Shown here one piece after another: positions 11,843 to 54,493 of a stretch of DNA of 64,000 nt (the stretch's first letter is position 1; each line of letters opens with the position of its first letter). Made by a program: the position numbers and the translations under genes. The notes beneath the pieces were generated by a model that made no database searches, was not told the origin of the DNA, and worked only from the letters and a program-made list of their open reading frames with translations. The DNA comes from a virus, in IMG/VR virus record IMGVR_UViG_3300042502_000732, positions 1-64,000 of that record; one strand, written 5' to 3'.

Positions 11843-12199
11843 ATGATTCCCGACCCAAAGAAAACCATCGTTTTCGATGTTGACGACACCATCCTCACAA
11901 CAGAAAACCGCGATTACGAAAACTCTCTACCGAAGATGGAAGTAATTGTGGGTATGCGAGCAATGAAGGATGCAGGGTGGACGATCATCTTGAATACAGC
12001 GAGGGGAATGGGTCGTTCAGACGGTGACATCGAAAGTGTGAGACAAGAAGTTATCGAGGAAATCGAAAAGTTCTGCACTAAATTCGATGTACCCTACGAT
12101 ACCATCTTGGTTGGAAAACCTTGGGCGGCATACTATGTAGACGACAAAGCAATGACTCCCGCTCAGTTCTCCGCAAAATATAAGGAAATTGAACAATGA
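11843..12199 (+). CDS. HAD-type phosphatase (capsule/sugar-phosphate type)
   Basis: A 118-residue protein with HAD motif I VFDVDDTIL (Asp12, Asp14), motif II LNTARGMG, the Lys-containing ILVGKPW, and motif III YYVDDKA. Close relatives by this pattern sit in polysaccharide gene clusters beside nucleotidyltransferases. It overlaps the next gene by four bases, and with it and the APH-fold kinase forms a three-gene set able to make or recycle an activated phospho-alcohol or sugar. The true substrate is unknown. Confidence 0.75.
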   Translation: MIPDPKKTIVFDVDDTILTTENRDYENSLPKMEVIVGMRAMKDAGWTIILNTARGMGRSDGDIESVRQEVIEEIEKFCTKFDVPYDTILVGKPWAAYYVDDKAMTPAQFSAKYKEIEQ

Positions 12200-12909
12200 A
12201 GAACGCACTCATTCTTGCTGCCGGTCGTAGTACTCGGTTTGGCCGAAACAAACTTGAGGAAAAGTTTGACGGGGTGTCACTTCCTTACCTGGCTGCCAAG
12301 TTCGCTCTTGAAAACGGTGCGGAAAACATCTATCTGACGCTCTCGCGCTCGGCGATTAAGACCGACGGGACTCGCATTTACCACCCTGTTCTAGATGAAG
12401 TTTCCAAGATTTGCGACCCGATCGTTCGTTTCCAGAGTGAGGAAACTTACGGACCAGGAGCTGCGATCACTACGTGGGCAGGCGTGATCAACGGCCCATT
12501 CACTGTGCTGTTTGGGGATAATTACTACCACGGAACGATCCCCCATGCCGAACGAGTTTTACTTGGCTCTGACCTTGAGAACTCAGTGTGGTTTTCATAT
12601 CTTCGTAAGTCACTAAATCCACGAAATCTTCAACTCGCCACAGTAATCGACAACTATGTGATTGAAAAACCACACGGACAACTCGAAGGCCGTTACTTCT
12701 GTGGTTTTGCCCGTTTCCCTGCGGGATACCTTGACACCATTGGTGACCTTCGCAAGAGCGACCGTGGCGAGGTTGAAATTACGGATATGATAAACATGGC
12801 GGAGAATCGTCAAGCAGTATCACTTTCTTCCATGGGTGTGATATGGGGAGACTTAACTTACGAGGCGGATTGCGCTCGCATTCGGGAGCTTGTTAGTGAA
12901 GGGAAGTAG
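12196..12909 (+). CDS. sugar-1-phosphate / phosphocholine-type nucleotidyltransferase
   Basis: This 237-residue protein starts in the ATGA overlap with the HAD gene. ALILAAGRSTRFGRNK at residues 4-19 is the nucleotide-binding signature of GT-A-fold nucleotidyltransferases, with Lys19 as expected for the activating Lys. VLFGDNYY (about residues 98-105) holds the metal-binding Asp, and EVEITDMIN is the usual later acidic motif. These enzymes transfer CMP or another NMP to a sugar phosphate or phosphocholine. The overlap with the kinase gene downstream recalls the LicC-LicA pair of choline activation. Confidence 0.8.
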   Translation: MKNALILAAGRSTRFGRNKLEEKFDGVSLPYLAAKFALENGAENIYLTLSRSAIKTDGTRIYHPVLDEVSKICDPIVRFQSEETYGPGAAITTWAGVINGPFTVLFGDNYYHGTIPHAERVLLGSDLENSVWFSYLRKSLNPRNLQLATVIDNYVIEKPHGQLEGRYFCGFARFPAGYLDTIGDLRKSDRGEVEITDMINMAENRQAVSLSSMGVIWGDLTYEADCARIRELVSEGK

Positions 12910-13642
12910 TGGGGCCACCCTGGATTTCTCTGGGGATTTCATACGGAAAAAGTGTAAGGATGCCGGTGAGCAGTGCGAGTGGTTTCGCATTGCTTCTCGG
13001 TATACCTTGGCACCAAGTGTTCGCCTCCCGCAAACAATCTGTGTGTCGGACTCAGATTACGACATTGAGTTTATTGAAGGTGTTTGTGGAACACAAATTG
13101 AATCTACACGTTTGATTGACACTTTGGTAGACCAGGTCTTCATTTGGTCTAAGCTCCCAGCGTCAAGACACACGGACTGGGGGTCTTACAAAGAGCGTCT
13201 TCACTTAGAGCACGTTTCTCTGACAGACAGCGAGATAGTTCGTCGAACTTTCGATTTCCTCGACGAAATAGTTCCACTACCTTCCTCCTTCTCGCATGGT
13301 GACCTAACGCTTGAAAACATCATTGTAGAAAATAACGGGGGAATAGTTCTGATCGACCCTAATTTCAAGACTAATTTGTTTCAGTCTTACGTTCTCGACT
13401 TAGGTAAATTGCTACAGTCTGTCCACAGCGATTATCACCGGTTGTTCAAATCACACCCAGGATGTGACCCTGCGCCTCTGTGCGCCCACTTGAGACAACG
13501 GCTAGGCGAACCCTTATGGACTCAGGCGCTGGCCGCTGAGATATCGCACGTGATCCGCCTGCGCAAGTACCGCACTTCCGACCAGTGGCCGGTGGTTGAC
13601 CGGCTGTTGGGGCAGCTTCTGGCTGAAGTCCAGGGATGTTAA
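12896..13642 (+). CDS. APH/choline kinase-fold phosphotransferase
   Basis: This 248-residue protein overlaps the nucleotidyltransferase by 14 bases; the start is GTG 12896, with TTG 12890 possible. VKGSSGATLDFSGDFIRKK resembles the ATP loop and Lys strand of the APH fold, SHGDLTLENIIVE is the catalytic loop (Asp base and Asn) and VLIDPN the metal-binding Asp. Family members phosphorylate choline, ethanolamine, aminoglycosides or sugars. Paired with a nucleotidyltransferase and a HAD phosphatase it may charge a small alcohol for transfer to DNA, protein or host surface; this is inference. Confidence 0.75.
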   Translation: MKGSSGATLDFSGDFIRKKCKDAGEQCEWFRIASRYTLAPSVRLPQTICVSDSDYDIEFIEGVCGTQIESTRLIDTLVDQVFIWSKLPASRHTDWGSYKERLHLEHVSLTDSEIVRRTFDFLDEIVPLPSSFSHGDLTLENIIVENNGGIVLIDPNFKTNLFQSYVLDLGKLLQSVHSDYHRLFKSHPGCDPAPLCAHLRQRLGEPLWTQALAAEISHVIRLRKYRTSDQWPVVDRLLGQLLAEVQGC

Positions 13643-25574: not shown

Positions 25575-26681
25575 ATGAAAACAAAAACCGCAGCAACCGC
25601 AGCGACTGCCTTGGCTTTGACTTTCGCCTTAGCAACCCTGCTCTCGGCAACACCAGCACTCGCAGCGTCAGCCGGACGAATAAGCGGACGGAGCTTTCGC
25701 AGTTCGTCTAGCTATAGCCGACCATCTCGGTCCCCAAGTTTCGGGAGTAGTCGCTCCAGCTCTCCAAGCTATAGGACCTCTCCCTCACCGGTGCTAAGAA
25801 GCACCCCTGCACCGGGGCTGAGTAGAAGTCCAAGCTACTACGGTGGTAGCCCTTCGATGCCGTACCGAACAACACTACCCTACAGCAACCCTGGGAGCAA
25901 CAGAACGAACATCATTGTGATGCCTGACATGACACCGAACGTTTATCCGATTGCTCCTCCACTTTATTCGTCGCAAGTGGCACCAGTGCCGCAAACACCT
26001 GTGAGTCCTGCATTCTTTTTTGGGATCCTTGCTGTGTTGGGGGTTGGGGGCTTGGCTCTCTTTCTGTTGGCTGGTGGTTGGGACGACTTTGTGAGCCCAT
26101 GGGTGAGTACTCAGCGGGACAAGCTTAGAAAGACGACCGTGGTGAGGCAGCGAGTGGCCTTGCTCGCCTCTGCAAAGGACCTACAAACAGACCTAATTCG
26201 ACTGGCTCGGCGAGGGGACACGGACAGTGCTGAGGGTCTCTCGAAGATCCTGCAAGAAACTTCCCTCGCCCTTCTTCGCCACCCCGACAAAGTTGTTTAC
26301 GCGTGGAGCAGTATTGAGCAGGTGGCGTCAGGAGAGGCAGAAAGCCGATTCGACCAACTTTCCATGGAAGAACGCTCGAAGGCATCAGAGGAAGTTCTCG
26401 CGAATGTGGGCGGGAGCATCTCAGAGCGTAAGGTCAAACCACAAAGAGACGTCACGGAAAACGAGTATATCCTTGTGAGCGTTCTTGTGGCGTCGGACCG
26501 GAAACTGGATATCAAACTGTCGGACTCGCACGAGAGCTTGAACGCCAATCTTGTGAAACTTGGATCTGTCTCTCCCGAGGATCTGGTGGCACTGGAAGTT
26601 ATTTGGCAGCCCGAAGACGAGTATGATGTTCTGTCAAAGGATGAACTTTTGAACCTGTACCCTGACTTAAACGTTCTTTAG
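25575..26681 (+). CDS. DUF1517-type secreted membrane protein (host-derived)
   Basis: This 368-residue protein has a signal peptide (MKTKTAATAATALALTFALA, cleavage near TPALAAS), a long Ser/Arg/Pro-rich low-complexity segment with repeated SRSPS and SYR blocks (about residues 35-95), a transmembrane helix at about 148-167 (FFFGILAVLGVGGLALFLLA), and a C-terminal domain of about 190 residues. That domain contains VALLASAKDLQTDLIRLARR, SALLRHP-like and AESRFDQLSMEERSK segments that fit the DUF1517 family of cyanobacteria and plastids. Its role there is unknown to me. A phage copy is likely an auxiliary host gene acting at the membrane. It follows a 77-base gap without a clear promoter unit. Confidence 0.75.
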   Translation: MKTKTAATAATALALTFALATLLSATPALAASAGRISGRSFRSSSSYSRPSRSPSFGSSRSSSPSYRTSPSPVLRSTPAPGLSRSPSYYGGSPSMPYRTTLPYSNPGSNRTNIIVMPDMTPNVYPIAPPLYSSQVAPVPQTPVSPAFFFGILAVLGVGGLALFLLAGGWDDFVSPWVSTQRDKLRKTTVVRQRVALLASAKDLQTDLIRLARRGDTDSAEGLSKILQETSLALLRHPDKVVYAWSSIEQVASGEAESRFDQLSMEERSKASEEVLANVGGSISERKVKPQRDVTENEYILVSVLVASDRKLDIKLSDSHESLNANLVKLGSVSPEDLVALEVIWQPEDEYDVLSKDELLNLYPDLNVL

Positions 26682-30578: not shown

Positions 30579-32600
30579 ATGACAAACACTGTCAATGTAA
30601 ACCTAGTCCAGCAAATTCAAGACGACTACCTTGCCTACTCGCTCAGTGTAATCGTGGGGCGAGCATTCCCCCGGTACACGGACGGGTGTAAGAGTATCTC
30701 TCGACGCATTGTAACAGCCATGAAGTGGCTCAACTTGAAGCCGGACGGTCGCTACATGAAGAGCGCCAGGGTAGAGGGGGAGGTTATGGGTAAATTGAGC
30801 CCCCACGGCGGAAGCTACAGCTCTATTGTCACTTTGGCTGCCCCGTGGAATAATATGGCCCCGCTCGTAGACGGGCACGGGAATTGGGGGTCTTCGACAG
30901 ACTCTGCGGCGTCGTCAAGGTACACTGAGTGCAAGCTCTCCCCTTTCGCCTGGGACTGCCTCCTCGACGACTCAGAAACCTGGGAGACGATGCCAAACTA
31001 CGACGGTACGCTGCAGGAGCCAATCGAGTTGAACGCAAAGATCCCTTACGTTTTGCTCAATGGTCAAGAGGGCATTGGCGTGGGATACGCCTGTAAAATC
31101 GCCTCTCACAGTCTCCGTTCTATTATTGAAGCAACCAAGCTGGTTTGCAAGGAAGCAATAACGTTTGAAGCACGCGCAGAAAACCTACGAAAAGCACGGG
31201 AGGTTCTCTTCCCTGACTTTCCAACTGGGACCCAGATTGTAAAAGACGATCAGTTGGAGCAATACTCATTAACAGGTATTGGCAGCATTCGCTGCATGGC
31301 GAAGGTTGAGATTGGTACCCAGACCCGTAGTGGAAAGGCAAAGGACCGTCCGTCCTTAACCTTCACGAACTTACCGCCAGGAACCAATCCTGAGAAAATC
31401 GGTGAGCAAGTGAAAAATGAGGTTGAGCGAGGGAGGGTTGAGGGTGTCGCTGAAGTCAATGACCTGTCAGATCTTACAGGGGACTGCGTTCAAATTGTGG
31501 CCAAGCCCGGTGTAAGCCCGGACAAGCTAAGAGACCAACTTTATGCCTACACCGACCTTGACACTAAGTTCTCAGCGAGAACCTTAGTTATCGATGGCAC
31601 GAAGCCCATAGAGCTCTCCCCGGTGGAAATTGTAGAGAAATGGGTGACATGGAGGTTGGGTAGATTACAAGTTAAATTCGAGAATGAGCTCACTCATCGA
31701 GAGGCTCGCCTGGAAATTGTTCAGGGACTGCTCAAGGCCATTGACAAGATGGACCTTATTATCAAAAGGATTCGTGCGGCGAAAGACAAGTCTGAGGCGA
31801 AAGTCGCACTAACAACCGCACCGCTGAAGTTCTCAGATAAGCAAGCTGAGGCCATTCTGGATATGCGCTTGCGTCAGCTTACGAACCTTGACCAAAACGA
31901 CCTTATTGTTGAGGATAACTACCTTCAAGGTCGGATTCAAGAGCTGGTAGAGCTGTCCAGCGACGAAACCAGCGGGACTACCGCGAGACAAGTGTATATG
32001 CTCAATGAGCTCACTGAAATAGGAAAGCGCCACGGAGAGGCTCGCCGAAGCCCCCTCATAGACCCCCCAACTGGCGGTGTGACCCGTGCTCCTGGGGAAA
32101 GCGTGAAGCGCCCCGCAGCCGCACCAAAGCCACGGTTCCTGAAGATTGACTCGAAGAAGGGCACTGTTGAGCAGGTGAAAGGGCCACGTGGAGCTCTTGT
32201 CGTAGACCCCAAAGACAAGGTTATTCTTATGACTGAGGACGGAACCTTGAAGAAGGTACCGGCAACTTTCAAGGGAGTTATCTCAACAGCGTACTCCGCT
32301 GTCTGCTTGGCGAAAAAGGAGTCTGAGGTTTCCTTGAAAAAGTACCTAGTTGTGCTCGAACTCGACGGGCAGCTGAAAGCACTAACCCTGAGCGGAGAAG
32401 ATCTTTGCAAGGTGACGAGTAAAGGCAAGAGATGGCTACCCGAAGGTTCCACACTGAGGCACTTTGGGGAGGGGTGTTTCACCCTGGACTGGGTTTCCAC
32501 TCGAAAGAAGGCAACGAAACTCGACCTGTCAGTAAAGCTCGGGAAGCCGGGGGGCAAAGGAATTAAAGTCGCAAGTATTGACGAGGTGAAACTACCTTAG
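30579..32600 (+). CDS. type II DNA topoisomerase subunit A (GyrA/ParC-like)
   Basis: This 673-residue protein begins with the breakage-reunion domain: FPRYTDGCKSISRRIVTAM, PHGGSYSS, the GNWGSSTDSA loop and active-site Tyr115 in SSRYTECKL, followed by a tower/coiled-coil part with many Glu and Lys around residues 370-420. The C-terminal 150 residues have only a partial beta-pinwheel (TEDGTLKKV, LDGQLKAL). It is shorter than cellular GyrA (about 870). The partner ATPase subunit is not in this window, so it must be elsewhere or come from the host. It would relieve supercoils during phage DNA replication. Confidence 0.9.
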   Translation: MTNTVNVNLVQQIQDDYLAYSLSVIVGRAFPRYTDGCKSISRRIVTAMKWLNLKPDGRYMKSARVEGEVMGKLSPHGGSYSSIVTLAAPWNNMAPLVDGHGNWGSSTDSAASSRYTECKLSPFAWDCLLDDSETWETMPNYDGTLQEPIELNAKIPYVLLNGQEGIGVGYACKIASHSLRSIIEATKLVCKEAITFEARAENLRKAREVLFPDFPTGTQIVKDDQLEQYSLTGIGSIRCMAKVEIGTQTRSGKAKDRPSLTFTNLPPGTNPEKIGEQVKNEVERGRVEGVAEVNDLSDLTGDCVQIVAKPGVSPDKLRDQLYAYTDLDTKFSARTLVIDGTKPIELSPVEIVEKWVTWRLGRLQVKFENELTHREARLEIVQGLLKAIDKMDLIIKRIRAAKDKSEAKVALTTAPLKFSDKQAEAILDMRLRQLTNLDQNDLIVEDNYLQGRIQELVELSSDETSGTTARQVYMLNELTEIGKRHGEARRSPLIDPPTGGVTRAPGESVKRPAAAPKPRFLKIDSKKGTVEQVKGPRGALVVDPKDKVILMTEDGTLKKVPATFKGVISTAYSAVCLAKKESEVSLKKYLVVLELDGQLKALTLSGEDLCKVTSKGKRWLPEGSTLRHFGEGCFTLDWVSTRKKATKLDLSVKLGKPGGKGIKVASIDEVKLP

Positions 32601-34165: not shown

Positions 34166-37096
34166 ATGAGAACCAGCGAACTCGGCTACCCTGTTCTGTC
34201 TACCCCACTGCACACTAAGGTTTTCGGCAGACAAAAGGCAGCTTCAATGGGAGTTAAGGCACGTCAAAAGGCCGAGCGACTCTTAAAGCAATTTGGTATA
34301 TCTGTCCCTGTTGATCACCCAGACAACCTGTACGATGGTCCCTTGCCCCTTCCAAGCTTAAGGGGTAGCAATTTACAGGAGCACTTTGAAAACATAGCAA
34401 CAGAGCAGGTAGGGGTATACAAAAACCTTGCGAATTCTCTAGCGGGGTGCAAACTCCCAAAACTCCCTGCAGTTTCCGACTTCGTCTATCAGGCGGGATG
34501 GACACGCTATGAGTTTGTAGACGGAAAGTTTCTTGTAGAGTCCGTACCATACCCACTCGAAGAAGCTTTCACGTACGACACTGAAACCTTCGTGAAAGCG
34601 GGTGCGTTTCCGATTATTGGGACGGCGCTAAGTGAAAAAGCAACCTACATTTGGCTCGCGGCAGAGCTTATTGACCCAACCATACCGGAGGAAGAGTGGG
34701 ACCAACACGATCTCATTCCCATTGGTGAGAACAGGTTTGTAGCGGGACACAATATTAGCTACGACCGAGTGAGAACACGGGAAGGATACTCACTTAACCG
34801 TAACAAGCCTGAAAACTTCTACTTTGACACACTCTCCGCGCATATCGGAGTGTCGGGTTTGGCTTCAGGTCAACGGTGGTTGTACCTTCTTGCGGCGAAA
34901 GACCCCGAAAACCTGACTGAAGAGGAAAAGAGAAAACTCAGGTATGCTCCAAAGTGGCTAGACGAGGGATCAACAAACAGTTTGGTGCAATGCTACAACT
35001 TTCACGTTTACGAGGTTCGTAAGTACTTCGGCGATGACACTGTCCGCCCACTCAACCAAGGGGACAAAAAGGTACGGGACATTTTTGTAGACGCTACGCA
35101 TATCTCGCAAATCACCGCAGTTCTTGAGAAGGCCGTAGAATACGCGGTAAGGGATGCTTTTTACACGGCGGAGCTTTTTCAGGCTTTGTGGCCGAAGTAT
35201 CTTGATAGTACACCGTCAATGGTTGGACTTTGTGGTCACTACCACCTGAACGGATCAGTCGTCCCCTTGGTGGAAGACTGGGCTGAGTGGATTCAGAACA
35301 CAGAAAGAGTGTTTCATGAGCACAGCCAGGAAATGACTGAGCTATGCAGGGAGCTTGTGTGGAAAACGTACAACGAGTGGAAGGCTGTCCTTAACAGCGT
35401 GGAGGACCCGGAGCGGGGCCTCGCGAAAGCGCAGAAATGGGCAGAACATGACCCCTGGGTGTCCCAGCTTAACTGGGAGATTCGGAGCAGAAAAGGCAAG
35501 TACGCTTGGGTTCCCTCTTGGGTGCAACCCTTTGTGAAAGACCCGCAACAGCACATCGGAGTCAAGTCGCAATTGGCTCACCTGCTACTGAAGCTCAAGT
35601 ACGAGGGATCACACATTGTTCAAACCAAAACAGAGGGCTGGTGCTACTACGATGAAACAGGTAGCCTTGTAAAAGTTCCCCACCCCAAAGGAACCGGGGA
35701 TAATACCGGAGTGTTACTCAGCAAGGACTTTGTCCAAGATATGGAAACCGGGAGGCTAAGTAGCGATCTCACTGAAGCTAAGAGAGCACTGGAGATTTCA
35801 AACGCTATTTCTTACTGGACTTCTGTTCGTAAGCGGGTGATGGACCGGATCTTCCTCCGCGCTGAAAACCCGCATGGTTCGTCCGCTCTCGTGACTCTTC
35901 CTGAGATTCTCTGCCACGGAACGGTAACTCGTAGAACCGTTGAAAGCTTGATGGCAACCTTGTGCTCCACGAAAAACTGGAGAATTGGCACGGAGCTGAA
36001 AACACGAGTGCAGGCACCAGAAGGCTGGAAAATTATAAGCGCCGACTACGACGGTCAAGAGCTTCAAATCGCATCCATATACAGCGATACTTGGGAGGGT
36101 GGCTTTGTTGGGTGCTCGCCAATGGGGTACAACGTTCTGTCTGGGTCCAAGGAAAATGGCACCGACCCTCACACCGCCCTTGCTCGGGCCATTCTCCCCG
36201 AAATTTACAAAGGGTTGGTGTGGGACAGAAAGCTGGGAATTTGTTACGGGCATGAAAGTGAGCCGTTGAGCGTACAAAACTGTGTAAGGGTTGGGGACTT
36301 CTGGTTAAGCCCAATTGAACCCCAGTTGTACAAACTCCTGGCGAAAGCCAGAGACCTGAGCAAGATTGTAGGCTTCGCAACCTTGTACGGAGGTAGCGTA
36401 AGAGCCCTAAGCACTCCAATTCGACGAACTTTTCCTGAGAAAGGAGAGAGAGAAGTTAAGGATTTCGCACTGAAAGCACTGTCCTCGAAAAAAGGTGTTC
36501 TGGTAAACGGAGTGTATGAAGGTGGTTCTGACTCCGGCGCATTCAACTTGATGGAGCAAATATCCATGAAGACAAAGGTTCCTCAGCTGCCTTGCCTTGG
36601 TACCAAAATTTCCACTGCAATGCGACCTGCGGCAGTTGGCACTGATTTTAAGAATGGACGCACAAACTGGGCCATTCAAGCATCGGGTGCCGAAATTCTA
36701 TCTATAACGCTCACGGCTGTCGCGTGGCTAGCGGAAGAGTACAAAATCCCCTACCGCTTCATTATCAGCATCCATGATGAGCTCCACTTCATGACACCTG
36801 AACGGTATGCCACTCAGTTTGCCGTTCTGTTTCAAATCGCTCACATGTATACCTGGTCTCTCTTTCAAAGCACTGTGGGTATTCCTGAGCTGCCTTTGAG
36901 CAGAGCTTACTTCTCCTCAGTAGCAATTGACTCTCGGATTCGTAAGTCCCCGAAAGAGTGCACAGTTACACCTTCAAACCCCAACGGTGCGAAAGAACCT
37001 AACGGAGTTGAGTACTCGATGACCGAACTCGGTGAGATTGGGGCTGTAGACAAGCTAAAGACACGATACGAAGCTATTCAAAAAGGACTGATTTGA
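34166..37096 (+). CDS. family A DNA polymerase, mitochondrial Pol gamma-like
   Basis: This 976-residue protein has proofreading and polymerase domains. Exo I is TYDTET (Asp138, Glu140), Exo II VAGHNISYDR (Asn196, Asp200), Exo III YAVRD (Asp330); motif A ISADYDGQEL (Asp627), motif B RDLSKIVGFATLYGG (Arg729, Lys733, Phe737, Tyr741), motif C ISIHDE (870-872). Blocks outside these motifs match animal Pol gamma rather than Pol I or T7: the N-terminus (LPSLRGSNLQEHF), LSAHIGVSGLASGQR, ALEISNAISYW, GTVTRRTVE, GTELKTRVQAP, and the tail TPSNPNG after a PLSRAYFSS block. The spacer between exo and pol is shorter than in human Pol gamma, and a roughly 45-residue insertion precedes motif B (about 680-727). 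Phe737 stands where human Pol gamma has Tyr. Confidence 0.93.
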   Translation: MRTSELGYPVLSTPLHTKVFGRQKAASMGVKARQKAERLLKQFGISVPVDHPDNLYDGPLPLPSLRGSNLQEHFENIATEQVGVYKNLANSLAGCKLPKLPAVSDFVYQAGWTRYEFVDGKFLVESVPYPLEEAFTYDTETFVKAGAFPIIGTALSEKATYIWLAAELIDPTIPEEEWDQHDLIPIGENRFVAGHNISYDRVRTREGYSLNRNKPENFYFDTLSAHIGVSGLASGQRWLYLLAAKDPENLTEEEKRKLRYAPKWLDEGSTNSLVQCYNFHVYEVRKYFGDDTVRPLNQGDKKVRDIFVDATHISQITAVLEKAVEYAVRDAFYTAELFQALWPKYLDSTPSMVGLCGHYHLNGSVVPLVEDWAEWIQNTERVFHEHSQEMTELCRELVWKTYNEWKAVLNSVEDPERGLAKAQKWAEHDPWVSQLNWEIRSRKGKYAWVPSWVQPFVKDPQQHIGVKSQLAHLLLKLKYEGSHIVQTKTEGWCYYDETGSLVKVPHPKGTGDNTGVLLSKDFVQDMETGRLSSDLTEAKRALEISNAISYWTSVRKRVMDRIFLRAENPHGSSALVTLPEILCHGTVTRRTVESLMATLCSTKNWRIGTELKTRVQAPEGWKIISADYDGQELQIASIYSDTWEGGFVGCSPMGYNVLSGSKENGTDPHTALARAILPEIYKGLVWDRKLGICYGHESEPLSVQNCVRVGDFWLSPIEPQLYKLLAKARDLSKIVGFATLYGGSVRALSTPIRRTFPEKGEREVKDFALKALSSKKGVLVNGVYEGGSDSGAFNLMEQISMKTKVPQLPCLGTKISTAMRPAAVGTDFKNGRTNWAIQASGAEILSITLTAVAWLAEEYKIPYRFIISIHDELHFMTPERYATQFAVLFQIAHMYTWSLFQSTVGIPELPLSRAYFSSVAIDSRIRKSPKECTVTPSNPNGAKEPNGVEYSMTELGEIGAVDKLKTRYEAIQKGLI

Positions 37097-44927: not shown

Positions 44928-46427
44928 TTGGCAAATAGGTTTAAGACAGCTCCGGTACCGAAGGGGGAGATCTCAAGTTATACGAGCGACCCTTATAACT
45001 TATCCAGTATTTACATGTTTGGGAGCTCTTCTCCCTTTACTGGATCCGGAAATAGCATCGTTCGACCAAGTGACGACCTTCTCATCCAGAAGGGAGGGAA
45101 CCGTGCGCTTTCCGTCTATCAGCGGCTTTTCTTTGACGAGCACGTACAAAGTTCGTTCTCAAAGTTAGTTCAAGAGGTTGTATCGAGACCGTGGTACGTT
45201 GAGGAATACAGCTCAAAGCCTGGCGATACTGCAGTAAGGGACTTCGTAGCAGAAATCCTCGAAGAACTACCCTTAGACGAGATATATAAGGGACTTGCTG
45301 AAGCCCTTATCGTGGGGTTTAGTGTTGGCGAAATAATGTGGAAGAAATCAAAACGCGGGGTAATACCCTTTGACATAAGAATTAGAGACCAGCGCCGATT
45401 TGTTTTCCAAGAAGCGGAAGACTCACAAACGGGCTTCACAATGAGGTGCTTAACCTTTAATCGTATGTTTGAGGGGGTTGAGCTCCCTGCTCGAAAATTC
45501 GTCGTAAATCGCTACTGGACTCAGCACAACGGGGACCCATACGGAACTTCGCTAGGGCGAGTTCTGTATCCCTTAGTAAAGTTTCGGAGAAGAGCCCTAG
45601 AGTCCTACGTTCTTTACGGGGACCGGTATGCGACACCCACAGCTGTTGCGACCGCACCCCTAAGCGCGTCCTCTGCCGAAATTGACACGATCTATGACCA
45701 CATCTCAAACTTATCTCAGGAAACTGCGCTAATTTTGCCGGATGGGTACAAGCTTGAGTTTGTCAACCCGAGCGGAACTCCGGATGTGTTTAAGGGACTG
45801 ATTGACTATATCGACAAGGAAATTAGCCTCATACTTTGCGGGGAAAACGAGGCTGGGCAAGCTGAGTCTGGATCCAGAGCTTCTTCACAGGTTGCAAACG
45901 TTGTTCGAGTTGTGAAGGCAGCGGAAATTTCCGAAGCGATCTCTCACACTTTGACTCGCACTCTGGTACGATGGATTGTAGACCTTAACTTCGGTGTAGA
46001 CGTTGCAGCGCCAACCCTCACAAGGGAGTTTCGAATTGAGGAGTCTTCCCTCACTGCCACCGACCTGGGTTCCCTTATCGACAAGGGGTACAAACCGCGT
46101 AGGGAGTGGGTTGAGAGGCATTTTCGTATTGAGCTTGAAGACGAAGCTCCTGAGTTCACGACGAAAGAGGAAGAAGGGAATACCACCTATAGCCCTGACG
46201 AGGACGAGGACCTTTACGGATCTATTTTTGGTGCTGACGGGGAGTACCCCGAAGGAAGTCCGGAGGACGAGCCGGAGGGTGGCGACGAGCCAAAGCCGAA
46301 GGAAGAACCATCCGGTGAGCAAACCACGTACAACCCTGAAGAAGATGGAAACCTTTACGACTCAGTGTTCGGGAATGACTTAGAACCCACTGAAGAGGGC
46401 AAAAAGAAGGGTAAAAAACGTATATGA
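44928..46427 (+). CDS. portal protein (Mu gp29/DUF935-like)
   Basis: A 499-residue protein starting at TTG 44928 after AGAGGTAAC. The conserved centre reads ALIVGFSVGEIMWKKSKRG, RDQRRFVF, ARKFVVNRYW and PYGTSLGRVLYPLVKFRR, the pattern of Mu-like portals that form the 12-fold DNA gate of the head. The last 90 residues are acidic with a two-copy motif (TTYSPDEDEDLYGSIFG and TTYNPEEDGNLYDSVFG), perhaps binding the scaffold. It overlaps the protease gene by four bases. Confidence 0.88.
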   Translation: MANRFKTAPVPKGEISSYTSDPYNLSSIYMFGSSSPFTGSGNSIVRPSDDLLIQKGGNRALSVYQRLFFDEHVQSSFSKLVQEVVSRPWYVEEYSSKPGDTAVRDFVAEILEELPLDEIYKGLAEALIVGFSVGEIMWKKSKRGVIPFDIRIRDQRRFVFQEAEDSQTGFTMRCLTFNRMFEGVELPARKFVVNRYWTQHNGDPYGTSLGRVLYPLVKFRRRALESYVLYGDRYATPTAVATAPLSASSAEIDTIYDHISNLSQETALILPDGYKLEFVNPSGTPDVFKGLIDYIDKEISLILCGENEAGQAESGSRASSQVANVVRVVKAAEISEAISHTLTRTLVRWIVDLNFGVDVAAPTLTREFRIEESSLTATDLGSLIDKGYKPRREWVERHFRIELEDEAPEFTTKEEEGNTTYSPDEDEDLYGSIFGADGEYPEGSPEDEPEGGDEPKPKEEPSGEQTTYNPEEDGNLYDSVFGNDLEPTEEGKKKGKKRI

Positions 46428-50433: not shown

Positions 50434-50515
50434 TGACCCCAAAGTTTTCGGACTCGCGGGTCGGATTGCTTCGGCAATCTTTGAAGTCAACTTTACACAC
50501 AAGGAAACATCTATT

Positions 50516-53500
50516 ATGATGAATCATAAAGGTTCCACTCAGAGGTGACTCTGATTGAAAATCGGGTGAATTGCTGGGACACCTGACGGCTTTGTATTAC
50601 AAGGCGCAAGGCAATCAGCAGCCAAGTTTACTTAGGGTCTCTACTAACTATAGTAGTGTTAAGTAAAAAGGTTCAACGACTAGAAAGTGATCAACCCTGA
50701 AATAATCTTTCCACGAGCGCCCGACTCTCGTAACAACCACTTCTTAAGAAGATACCTAAGAATGTGCTTTAGCATAAGATCCTTATCTCGCGTAAAATGC
50801 AAGAGGGATGGTTTAGAAAAGCACAGAATTCTACCTAAATGTATGGGTGGAACTTACAACCCCGAAAACGTAGTTTTAACTACAAGAAGAGAACATACAG
50901 TTCTTCATTTAGTACTTCATAAAGCTTTCCCCACTAATATAAAACTCGCTGAATGCGCCTCCTTAATGAACGGATCCAAAGGGTCCAAGTTCTACAAGTC
51001 TCTGGAGTATTGTCAGAAAAACGAGGAAAAGTCAAAACGGATAGCTGAGTCTAACAGAAGAAGGGAAGTTTCTTGGGGTCATAAAATTTCCAGCTCCCTA
51101 AAAGGTAGAACCAAAGACAAGGAGCACAGAGGTAAGATAAGTAGCACTATGAAAGAAGTGTGGAAAAATAATCCCACAATGATTGACAAGTGCTCTCGTA
51201 AAAACTCTACCCATAGCGATGAGTCAAAGCGAAAAATTTCCTGTGCGATATCAAAACAAAGATGGTACTGGAAAATCGAAGGTACAGAAGTGATTAGAAC
51301 TCGGTCAGAAAAACACCCCGGCGAGGGGTGGCAGCTGGGCCGTAATCCGAGATGATGATATAGTCTGAACTTTACAGAAATGTAGAGAAGTAAAGGATAA
51401 AGAGCCTTTACGATAACAAGTTGCTACAACAGACTTATGCAGGTGTGGATTAATTAGGGTCCCAACTTCCAAACAAAGTTGAAAATCGGGTGAATTGCTG
51501 GGACACCTTAGTTTTGCTTTTGCAAAATAGGCAATCAGCAGCCAAGGCCCCTAGGGATAGGGGCAAGGTTCAACGACTAGATTAAGTAGCCTAGAACAGG
51601 CGAACAATCCACGAGCGCCCGACTCTTTGCTCAAGCAAAGATGATGATATAGTCTGACCTGTATGGAAACATACAGAAGCAAAAGATAAAGAGCTTTTGC
51701 GATAACACTGGCCAATCCTCACAACACTCGCACAAGGCTTCATGCTCCCTTTGGTGTAGGGGAAAAGAAATTGGGTGAACTGCGGGAAAGCCTACTTTTG
51801 CTTAGCAAAAGGGTCAATCCGCAGCCAAGCTTCCGGTACACCGGAAGAAGGTTCAGAGACTACCTGGGGGATTTAGTTCCCTTAATAACAGGCTAGAGCG
51901 CCCAACGTTTTGTAAAGAAACGATAAGATAGTCCGACACTCTGTGTAAGCAGAGAGAACATATTGTCCACCAACATTGCGAATCGATAGGGTTCCACTCA
52001 GAGGTGACTCTGATTGAAAATCGGGTGAATTGCTGGGATACCTTAGTTTTGCTTTTGCAAAACAGGCAATCAGCAGCCAAGTTTACTTAGGGTCTCTACT
52101 AACTATAGTAGTGTTAAGTAAAAAGGTTCAACGACTAGAAAGTGATCAACCCTGAAATAATCTTTCCACGAGCGCCCGACTCTCCCTTACACTACCAACG
52201 GTACATAAAGTTTATCCTCTCCAGACCCCCAAGGAGTTTGACACGAGAACCCGGACACCACATTCACCATATAGTGCCCAAGTGCATGAAGGGTGGAAAT
52301 GAAGATGGTAACCTAATCAAACTCACCTACAGAGAGCACTACCTGTCTCACTGCCTGCTGGCTCTAGCTTTCTCTTCCATAAAGAGGTTAGGCAAAGCTA
52401 TAAACTCTTTCAAGGAGTCTTCGAAAAACTCCAGAGTGTACGAAACCTTAGCTCATCATAAACACTCGGACGAAACTAGGTTTAAAATTGGCAAATCCAA
52501 TAAAGGAAAGGCCAGACCCAGGAAAGTTCCAATGTCTGATAAAGAAAGATCCGCTCGTGCAGAATTATGCAAGAACAGAGTGTGGAGTGCAGAATCAAGA
52601 CAGAAACTTAAAGATAAGGCACTTAGTAAACCAACTATACAATTCGCCTTGCAAGCCGCTAATAGACCCGACCGGGATCGAACAGGCATTAAAAACCCTC
52701 GGGCTAATGTCGAAGTTTGGTCTAATTTAGGTTTATTGCATGAAGTTTGGGTTTCTAACGAGAAGTGTGGGGCCAGGAAGCTGTTCCGGCTAACCGGTCT
52801 AGGTAATACTTGGCAGTCTCTGCGAACCGTTGTTAAAAAGTTTAAGGAAGATGATGATATAGTCTGATCTTTGCAGAAATGCGAAGAAGTGAAGGATAAA
52901 GAGCCTTCACGGTAACAAGTGTTTATCGCACCGGTTGTGGACACCCCTACCCGCGCTGGGAGAATTCTCAGATTTGGGAAGGAGCAGTTTGCTATAAACG
53001 ATTTCCGTCGTGCTTACGGAACTAACATCCCATACGTCCAAAGCCGCTACGACTCTGAGCCTTATGCTCTAGAGCAGGAAGTGGTCGCCTGGGAATTGCC
53101 TGAAGAGGTAATTGAAAATGCCGGGGAAGGGCCCGCGCAGGTGGATTATTTTTTACGTGCAATTTCGATCGCAGCGTAGGTCCACTATAAATTGGGTGAA
53201 TTGCTGGAACCCCCGTGTGGGAAATCAGCAGCCAAGGCCCCTAGGGATAGGGGCAAGGTTCAACGACTAACAGCATACCACTAGAACAGTGATGAAGCTG
53301 ACACGAGCGCCCGATGTTTTGTAAAGTGAACACTAAGTTCACCTCACAGAACAATGATATAGTCTGAACATTGCCGACAACAAGGTAATGAATCAGCGGA
53401 TAAAGAGCCGCTGAGTTAACAAATTGCTTCGCGCAATCGAAACCAGGAATGCAATGTCCAGATTGATGAACAGCTACGAGTACACCGTTGCTCAAGCTGT

Positions 53501-54493
53501 TTCCGTCACCGCGACTTACAACCCTTACGAGCCCTATAACGGAACCGCAGGTTCCCAGACCGGACTCGGTTTCACAACCTGGACAAACTTCAAGACAGCT
53601 TACGGCTCCGTTGCTGGAGACGCCGCCTGGTCTGGTGCTACTTCTAACCCAATTGAAGACATCCTCACCCTCAAGCGTGCAGTCGCCAACCAAATCGGTA
53701 TCCGTCCAAACTCCGCAGTCGTCGGTACTGCCGTGTTTGACCTCTTGCTGACCAACGAGAAGATCCTTGATCGTATCAAGTACACATCTGCAGACAGCGT
53801 CGACACTGACGTCATTGCTCGCTACTTCGGTCTTGAGCGTGGCCTACGTGTTGCCGAAGGTCGTTACTTAGCGCAAGATGGAACCCTACAGCCGGTATTC
53901 CCAGCTAACGGTATCCTTCTGTTCTACAGCCCTAACGGTCCTTCTGATTCCATCATGCCTGCTGGTGGTGCGAATGCTGCGACTCCTGCCTTCTCTTACA
54001 CGTATGCTAACAACATCGTTTCTTTTAAACGAGCTGAATGCGTGGTTTGATGGTAACATCAAATTACTCGCCTGATCCGCGAGTCAATGGGGTGAATTGC
54101 TGGGAAGCCTACGGCTTCAAACGAGAGTTTGAAACTATGGTAATCAGCAGCGAAGCGTTTTCGGGAGAAAACGAACGTTCAACGACTAACAGCATACCAC
54201 TAGAACAGTGATGAAGCTGACAAGAGTGCCCCACTCCCTAAACCCTCAAAGTTAAAGGGAAGAAGATATAGTCTGATCTTCACAGAAATGTGAAGAAATA
54301 AGGGATAAAGAGCCCTTATGATAACACAAATGATCAGCTCACAGGCACCCCCGCCGTCCGTCCCGAATACTACATTCGTGAACGCCGCGTTGTTCGTGCT
54401 GAAATCACAATTGAACGTGTGGTTAACCTAGTTGGCCTCGGCGCAACTGGTCTTATCGGTTCTGGCGCTATGATCACCAACATCCTATCCTGA
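50516..54493 (+). CDS. major capsid protein, seven exons split by six group I introns
   Basis: Predicted exons: 50516-50524, 51424-51450, 51712-51750, 51966-51983, 52922-53158, 53427-54048 and 54333-54493 (1113 nt, 370 residues). AAGGAA lies ten bases before the ATG. Joining gives MMN + LQQTYAGVD + PILTTLAQGFMLP + STNIAN + FIAPVVDTPTRAGRILRFGK and onward, a continuous start typical of one MCP type (LTxLAxGF, FIAPVV, RAGRILRFGKE). Exon 6 carries SYEYTVAQAV and ILTLKRAVANQIGIRPN; exon 7 ends in GSGAMITNILS. None of the unspliced pieces makes sense alone. Introns 1-5 are in phase 0 and intron 6 in phase 1. The intron 2 and 6 edges are the least certain. Confidence 0.85.
50525..51423 (+). ncRNA. 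group I intron 1 of MCP (with HNH gene)
   Basis: P1 is GAAUC/GGUUC with the U-G pair at the splice site after GAAU. P2 is CAGAG/CTCTG with a GTGA loop. Core: P GAATTGCTGGGA (about 50570), Q AATCAGCAGCC (50612), R GTTCAACGACTA (50671), S GATATAGTCTGA (51356). The HNH ORF lies between R and S (P8 loop). Ends at G51423. Confidence 0.85.
50687..51355 (+). CDS. HNH homing endonuclease in intron 1
   Basis: A 222-residue protein from GTG 50687 in the P8 loop of intron 1. KHRILPKCMGGTYNPENVV with REHTVLH is an HNH fold of the phage intron type; HKISSSLKGRTKDKEHRGKI and a second similar stretch match NUMOD3-type DNA-binding repeats; GEGWQLGRNPR is at the end. Its first 14 residues are encoded by intron core sequence and are identical to those of the intron 4 protein. 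It would cut intronless MCP alleles to spread the intron. Confidence 0.85.
   Translation: MINPEIIFPRAPDSRNNHFLRRYLRMCFSIRSLSRVKCKRDGLEKHRILPKCMGGTYNPENVVLTTRREHTVLHLVLHKAFPTNIKLAECASLMNGSKGSKFYKSLEYCQKNEEKSKRIAESNRRREVSWGHKISSSLKGRTKDKEHRGKISSTMKEVWKNNPTMIDKCSRKNSTHSDESKRKISCAISKQRWYWKIEGTEVIRTRSEKHPGEGWQLGRNPR
51451..51711 (+). ncRNA. group I intron 2 of MCP
   Basis: A small 261-nt intron without ORF. P1 GGAUU/GGUCC, P2 CAACTT/AAGTTG, core GAATTGCTGGGA, AATCAGCAGCC, GTTCAACGACTA, GATATAGTCTGA. The P5 arm is shared with intron 4 and the P6 arm (CCCCTAGGGATAGGGG) with intron 5. Confidence 0.8.
51751..51965 (+). ncRNA. group I intron 3 of MCP (distinct lineage)
   Basis: A 215-nt intron without ORF. 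P1 UCCCU/AGGGG with U-G at CCCU. Its core differs from the other five: GAACTGCGGGAAA, AATCCGCAGCC, GTTCAGAGACTA, AAGATAGTCCGA. Ends at G51965. Confidence 0.85.
51984..52921 (+). ncRNA. group I intron 4 of MCP (with HNH gene)
   Basis: P1 GAAUC/GGUUC and P2 as in intron 1, and the same 5' arm for about 190 nt except for the P5 arm. Core at about 52028 (P), 52070 (Q), 52127 (R), 52853 (S). Ends at G52921. Its 5' exon is an 18-nt micro-exon. Confidence 0.85.
52142..52867 (+). CDS. HNH homing endonuclease in intron 4
   Basis: A 241-residue protein from GTG 52142. HHIHHIVPKCMKGGNEDGNL with REHYLSHCLLA is the HNH core; SDETRFKIGKSNKGKARPRK resembles a NUMOD3-type repeat. After the shared first 14 residues it is clearly different from the intron 1 enzyme, although the two introns are nearly identical around it. 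Confidence 0.85.
   Translation: MINPEIIFPRAPDSPLHYQRYIKFILSRPPRSLTREPGHHIHHIVPKCMKGGNEDGNLIKLTYREHYLSHCLLALAFSSIKRLGKAINSFKESSKNSRVYETLAHHKHSDETRFKIGKSNKGKARPRKVPMSDKERSARAELCKNRVWSAESRQKLKDKALSKPTIQFALQAANRPDRDRTGIKNPRANVEVWSNLGLLHEVWVSNEKCGARKLFRLTGLGNTWQSLRTVVKKFKEDDDIV
53159..53426 (+). ncRNA. group I intron 5 of MCP
   Basis: A 268-nt intron without ORF. P1 UACGU/GCGUA with a U-G pair at the splice site after CGT, core GAATTGCTGGAA, AATCAGCAGCC, GTTCAACGACTA, GATATAGTCTGA. Shares the P3/P8 segment with intron 6. Ends at G53426. Confidence 0.85.
54049..54332 (+). ncRNA. group I intron 6 of MCP
   Basis: A 284-nt intron without ORF. Possible P1 TTTGATG/CATCAAA and P2 ACTCGC/GCGAGT; core GAATTGCTGGGA, AATCAGCAGCG, GTTCAACGACTA, GATATAGTCTGA. 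The 5' edge is less certain because no U-G pair is seen at the site. Confidence 0.75.

Follow-up and report, generated by a model that had tools for sequence, protein, structure and literature searches.

The DUF1517 membrane protein gene found in the window analysed here (the whole stretch of 64,000 nucleotides, taken from a virus record of 64,187 bases) is carried by a phage, recurs in other viruses, evolves under purifying selection, and has been exchanged between phage lineages. The gene lies at positions 25575..26681 on the plus strand. We hypothesize that it is an auxiliary gene of large cyanophages encoding a FLAP1/FlpA-type regulator, which would keep photosynthetic membranes productive during infection; we give this explanation an even chance of being correct.

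From an ATG start, the open reading frame (ORF) encodes 368 amino acids that match the Pfam family DUF1517 (PF07466) with an E value of 7e-55 and a score of 186 bits, against a cut-off (gathering score) of 23.3. The match runs over residues 187-367 and positions 2-183 of the 184 in the profile, and hence covers a near full-length domain; a genome-level Pfam search placed DUF1517 at the same site (26133..26675, +). The original prediction had described a phage-borne DUF1517 membrane protein with a signal peptide, a Ser/Arg-rich region and one membrane helix, and had named a profile search as the check able to refute it; that search found the similarity, and hydropathy and composition agree with the remainder of the description. 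Residues 5-31 are hydrophobic and end in ATPALAAS, and the N-terminus (residues 1-31, up to ATPALAA; 25575..25667, +) is signal-peptide-like, the cleavage motif being judged by eye. The following linker (residues 32-143; 25668..26003, +) contains 29 serines, 20 prolines, 11 arginines and 7 glycines in 112 residues, differs by insertions and deletions between phages, and is fast evolving according to both alignment and dN/dS. One strong hydrophobic helix peaks at residues 142-170, with its core at about residues 144-166 (26004..26072, +). Lysine and arginine together number 11 in the linker and 6 just after the helix, so that the charge rule leaves the topology unsettled.

By sequence, no relative of the phage protein was found in the PDB, nothing scored above the curated cut-off in NCBIfam, and the gene is absent from PHROGs. 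A structure model of the full-length protein was unusable (pLDDT 34); a model of the domain alone, of modest confidence (pTM 0.68, pLDDT 66), shows a partial alpha/beta fold with four strands, for which a Foldseek search of the PDB and BFVD at an E value of 0.001 returned no match, while the best fold comparison reached a Z score of 3.6, from which no functional hint was drawn.

The membrane role of the protein had been put down as unknown, a view that is outdated, as the family includes FLAP1 and FlpA/Slr0404, which have been studied in Arabidopsis and Synechocystis (PMC9174948, PMC9764255). FLAP1 is described in a review as having one transmembrane helix and a DUF1517 domain (PMC9174948), an architecture that hydropathy and Pfam also find in the phage ORF. 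Arabidopsis flap1 mutants show abnormal relaxation of quenching, which suggests an over-acidic lumen, and a Synechocystis FlpA mutant departs from normal in its light-induced proton extrusion and uptake, with slow growth under fluctuating light (PMC9174948). Slr0404, the FLAP1 homologue, has been placed near the oxygen-evolving complex of photosystem II (PMC9764255) and located in the thylakoid and inner membranes (PMC7880944). On the basis of Pfam and these published descriptions, the phage protein resembles FLAP1 (Arabidopsis At1g54520) and FlpA/Slr0404 (Synechocystis) in its near-full DUF1517 domain, its single helix and its export-signal-like start. It differs from them in being encoded by a phage and in its Ser/Pro/Arg-rich linker, whereas the homologue of PCC 7002 is listed as a glycine-rich membrane protein (PMC7880944).

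Genes for tail sheath, portal, head protease, major head protein and baseplate identify the window as phage DNA, and the DUF1517 gene sits among these structural genes and near the gene for DNA gyrase/topoisomerase subunit A (gyrA; 30579..32600, +), a phage-genome setting of the kind expected of an auxiliary metabolic gene. The cyanophage-type DNA polymerase gamma gene (polG; 34166..37096, +), used to place the phage, matches only cyanophages in INPHARED (11 of 11 records), the best being Synechococcus phage S-CBWM1 at 57%; in a sequence search the portal protein (44928..46427, +) is also closest to S-CBWM1 (61%). An intact psbA is carried by the contig G001, whose DUF1517 protein is 93% identical to that of the window. 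Because of these affinities of polG and portal, and of psbA in a close relative, we consider a Synechococcus-like cyanobacterium the most likely host. The photosynthetic host that had been read from DUF1517 thus finds support as a cyanobacterium in these other genes, whereas DUF1517 alone is uninformative on this point: it occurs in the control genomes of Thermus composti and Deinobacterium chartae (same Pfam search) and on a Deinococcus plasmid, all from non-photosynthetic Deinococcota.

The D1 protein of G001 (L018:1420-2499) shares about 76% identity with the D1 proteins of other cyanophages, and reads AEHNILMNPLHM where cyanobacterial D1 has AEHNILMHPFHM, at position 195 in D1 numbering. 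Among the DUF1517 records psbA was found in one of 17, and it is missing from the closed genome G006 (279,339 bases), in which the first 100 bases are repeated 124 bases before the end, as fits a closed genome of more than 200 kb. In another record, G009, a 67-amino-acid ORF is Hli-like by its motif, and this too fits a cyanobacterial host.

Several further features of these genomes were observed. The gene set of G001 (L056-L063) is unusual for a phage: among the Pfam matches listed are elongation factor Ts, NadA, NAPRTase, an ADP-ribosyltransferase-type domain, an ADP-ribosylglycohydrolase, and a Tet_JBP oxygenase with a TET-associated glycosyltransferase, in a survey that covered 177 of the 212 ORFs with a length of 130 amino acids or more and in which one of three tables gives 25 of 31 families. 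Two neighbouring ORFs at 12196-13642 of the window have weak matches, one to a nucleotidyltransferase family (25.7 bits, where the cut-off is 27) and the other to a phosphotransferase family (24.5 bits, narrowly over its cut-off of 23.2), and perhaps serve sugar or head-group modification. Six group I introns match above the Rfam cut-off within less than 4 kb of the window (50511-54295), at 50511-51387, 51427-51676, 51730-51955, 51971-52886, 53100-53390 and 54011-54295, and apparently interrupt the gene for the major head protein; of the 315 positions in the profile of that protein, the ORF at 53424-54050 covers just 109-270, and some of the exons between introns would have lengths of roughly 15 to 53 bases. 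Two of the introns contain ORFs (50687 and 52142) with an identical 121-base repeat, one of them with a NUMOD3 motif.

Four pattern scans each revealed the same 16 other viral contigs with the DUF1517 gene, at 52-93% identity, a recurrence that excludes a chance ORF, and widening the patterns to cover the Crinalium and Deinococcus proteins yielded these 16 viral contigs again. PF07466 scores above its cut-off in all 17 viral records, with one copy in 16 and in none two intact copies; in G015, two fragments reflect a frame break near the start of the contig (L016:10001-11057), which may be a sequencing error. The order of genes around DUF1517 is alike in all contigs where it is visible. By Pfam and locus comparison gyrA is the syntenic anchor downstream, and DUF1517 lies 2.5-4.1 kb upstream of it in each of the 15 gyrA loci with the gene. 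A scan for gyrA found 48 related contigs (the gyrA tree omits the partial L129), of which 15 are the known DUF1517 holders; the remaining 33 have no DUF1517 anywhere on the contig, so the gene is dispensable for this group of phages, with 14 of the 33 extending 5 kb or more beyond gyrA on its upstream side and many of the others being too short there to judge. S-CBWM1 has no PF07466 match, and tblastn searches of INPHARED (50,697 records) with the window protein and with the Crinalium protein found no DUF1517. Our literature search on DUF1517 and on cyanophages with FLAP1 turned up no description of FLAP1 in a phage; the phage gene, most likely of FLAP1/FlpA type, would be an addition to the known cyanophage habit of carrying photosynthesis genes.

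As is expected of an auxiliary metabolic gene, the gene is intact, with G015/L016 alone showing a frame break, and its DUF1517 domain is under purifying selection: dN/dS is 0.07-0.23 in nine of 11 pairs, the other two being saturated, and the linker is under looser constraint (0.11-0.46 in the seven pairs with a value). Across 13 sequences, 23 domain residues are invariant, and residues conserved throughout the family are kept in the phage copies; alignment A1 omits L016 because of its frame break, as well as rows with the same protein (L003 and L004, equal to L002; L012 and L015, equal to L011; L014, equal to L013; and L006, equal to L007). The history of the gene differs from that of its carriers. 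L009 and L007 are 86% identical in DUF1517 but only 58% in gyrA and 65% in polG, whereas the window and L009 are 67% identical in DUF1517 but 81% in gyrA and 85% in polG; because the DUF1517 identities contradict those of gyrA and polG, the gene has been exchanged between phage lineages while its position was kept. Exchange with retained position suggests selection to keep the gene. L010 has a gyrA that looks mosaic (69% identical to the window, 71% to L007 and 78% to L009), the respective figures for its polG being 86%, 68% and 95%.

Between the two groups of phages, the DUF1517 proteins are about 66% identical. They cluster together, apart from the protein of a Crinalium plasmid, the one cyanobacterial sequence in the comparison, with which their domain is 35-38% identical; with the protein of a Deinococcus plasmid, with which they have the Pfam domain in common and whose host group is non-photosynthetic, domain identity is 25-27%. 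A scan of plasmids detected DUF1517 only in these two, Crinalium and Deinococcus. On the mobilizable Crinalium epipsammum plasmid pCRI9333.01 the gene (L036:3491-4594) adjoins a site-specific integrase, and the family therefore also moves on plasmids.

How a FLAP1/FlpA-type regulator might serve a phage can be outlined as follows. The host secretion pathway would export the phage protein, and its one helix would anchor it in the thylakoid membrane, the cytoplasmic membrane, or both, with the basic Ser/Pro/Arg-rich tail in the lumen or periplasm and the DUF1517 domain on the cytoplasmic side. In this position the protein would replace or supplement the host FlpA, together with the host partners PxcA/PxcL and Vipp1. 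Infected Prochlorococcus cells are thought to shift toward cyclic, ATP-making electron flow with carbon fixation held back (PMC5082946). Under such cyclic flow protons would build up in the lumen, and a phage FLAP1/FlpA could relieve the excess acidification and balance the flow of protons; alternatively, the same end might be reached by keeping the membrane sealed through Vipp1. Either way, light-driven ATP synthesis would go on during the shutdown of the host genome. We also considered whether the phages bring the partners themselves, and rejected phage-borne PxcA/CemA, CP12 and Vipp1: among 18 phage records, none had a match above cut-off to CemA/PxcA, to CP12, or to Vipp1/PspA, with four PspA_IM30 matches that are weak (12.5-15.3 bits) and fall far under the cut-off of 33.9. 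With these absent, the wider pathway is not carried and the protein would rely on partners of the host. This counts against the FLAP1/FlpA explanation, as do the low identity to the Crinalium domain, the occurrence of DUF1517 in non-phototrophs, the presence of psbA in only one of 17 records, and the 33 gyrA-related contigs that lack the gene. Scans for a promoter of its own counted five sites in the window, against 3.0 (sd 1.8) in shuffled sequences, and four in L011, against 2.3 (sd 1.5), and we make no claim from them.

The sealing of membranes might instead be the main function. The phage protein would then be chiefly an adaptor that recruits the host ESCRT-III protein Vipp1, along with PspA, to leaking membranes or for the remodelling of thylakoids, any effects on protons being secondary to sealing; we consider this explanation rather doubtful. 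In its favour, FLAP1/CPLD42/Slr0404 has been named as a prominent partner of Vipp1, and carpets of Vipp1/PspA block proton leak (PMC13051332). The likeness to partner proteins of PspA/Vipp1 extends to some of the DUF1517 phages, which also encode an SPFH/Band_7 protein, and in Bacillus an SPFH protein is required for bringing PspA to the membrane (PMC8581546). Of the 17 DUF1517 records, five encode SPFH/Band_7, among them each of the four contigs with a length of about 190 kb or more; of six DUF1517-negative gyrA-related records (S-CBWM1 plus five contigs with lengths of 90-136 kb), none does. Against this, most DUF1517-negative contigs are fragments, and all but S-CBWM1 may be incomplete; the main text of the Chlamydomonas proxiome names neither FLAP1 nor CPLD42, so that the interaction rests on the wording of a review; and with no phage PspA or Vipp1 above cut-off, a putative Vipp1-binding adaptor would depend totally on the host.

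The SPFH gene lies at L136:1327-2145 (-) in G001, and others are found in G004, G006, G009 and G015. The SPFH protein of these DUF1517 phages is 68-71% identical to those of the cyanophages S-CREM1 and B23, neither of which has a DUF1517 match, and this weakens both the adaptor explanation and the idea of SPFH as a dedicated partner of DUF1517; the association of the two is a lead only. That membrane-anchored adaptors (the FLAP1 homologue and, in the larger records, SPFH) jointly enlist host Vipp1/PspA and so keep photosynthetic membranes proton-tight in infection seems to us unlikely. Were that so, the phage would be turning the membrane-stress repair system of the host to its own use.

It is quite improbable that the gene encodes an envelope protein of general function with no tie to photosynthesis, for instance a factor of the cell wall or cytoplasmic membrane retained for other reasons. 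The occurrence of DUF1517 in Thermus, Deinobacterium and Deinococcus, the lack of a functional hint from fold searches, and the lack of psbA in most DUF1517 records are all consistent with such a role; yet the carrier phages infect cyanobacteria, to judge from polG and portal, the phage domain is closer to the cyanobacterial protein than to the Deinococcus one, and the cyanobacterial and plant members that have been studied act in photosynthetic membranes (PMC9174948, PMC9764255, PMC7880944). Very unlikely, finally, is a decoy or dominant-negative copy that displaces host FlpA and blocks its action (for example, in order to hold a high proton gradient or to stop the building of thylakoids): the distance of the phage domain from the one cyanobacterial copy compared and a Ser/Pro/Arg-rich linker that is poor in glycine, where the PCC 7002 homologue is listed as glycine-rich (PMC7880944), would agree with it, but purifying selection over the whole domain and its 23 invariant residues fit an active copy better.

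A FLAP1/FlpA-type regulator would have counterparts among the auxiliary photosynthesis genes of cyanophages, psbA, hli and CP12. The likeness lies in a host-type gene of the photosynthetic membrane being carried by a cyanophage, and psbA and the Hli-like ORF are themselves found in G001 and G009; the difference is that a phage DUF1517 protein would affect proton balance or the upkeep of membranes, and neither a reaction centre nor the fixation of carbon. The photosynthesis genes known from cyanophages serve reaction centres, light harvesting or carbon metabolism; a FLAP1 protein, if that is what the gene encodes, would add control over the proton gradient or over membrane upkeep, a step that sets the ATP yield of infected cells. 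The phage proteins also offer a natural set of divergent sequences in which key residues of the family may be located. A phage FLAP1 would suggest that these viruses have a hand in running the energised membranes of infected cells.
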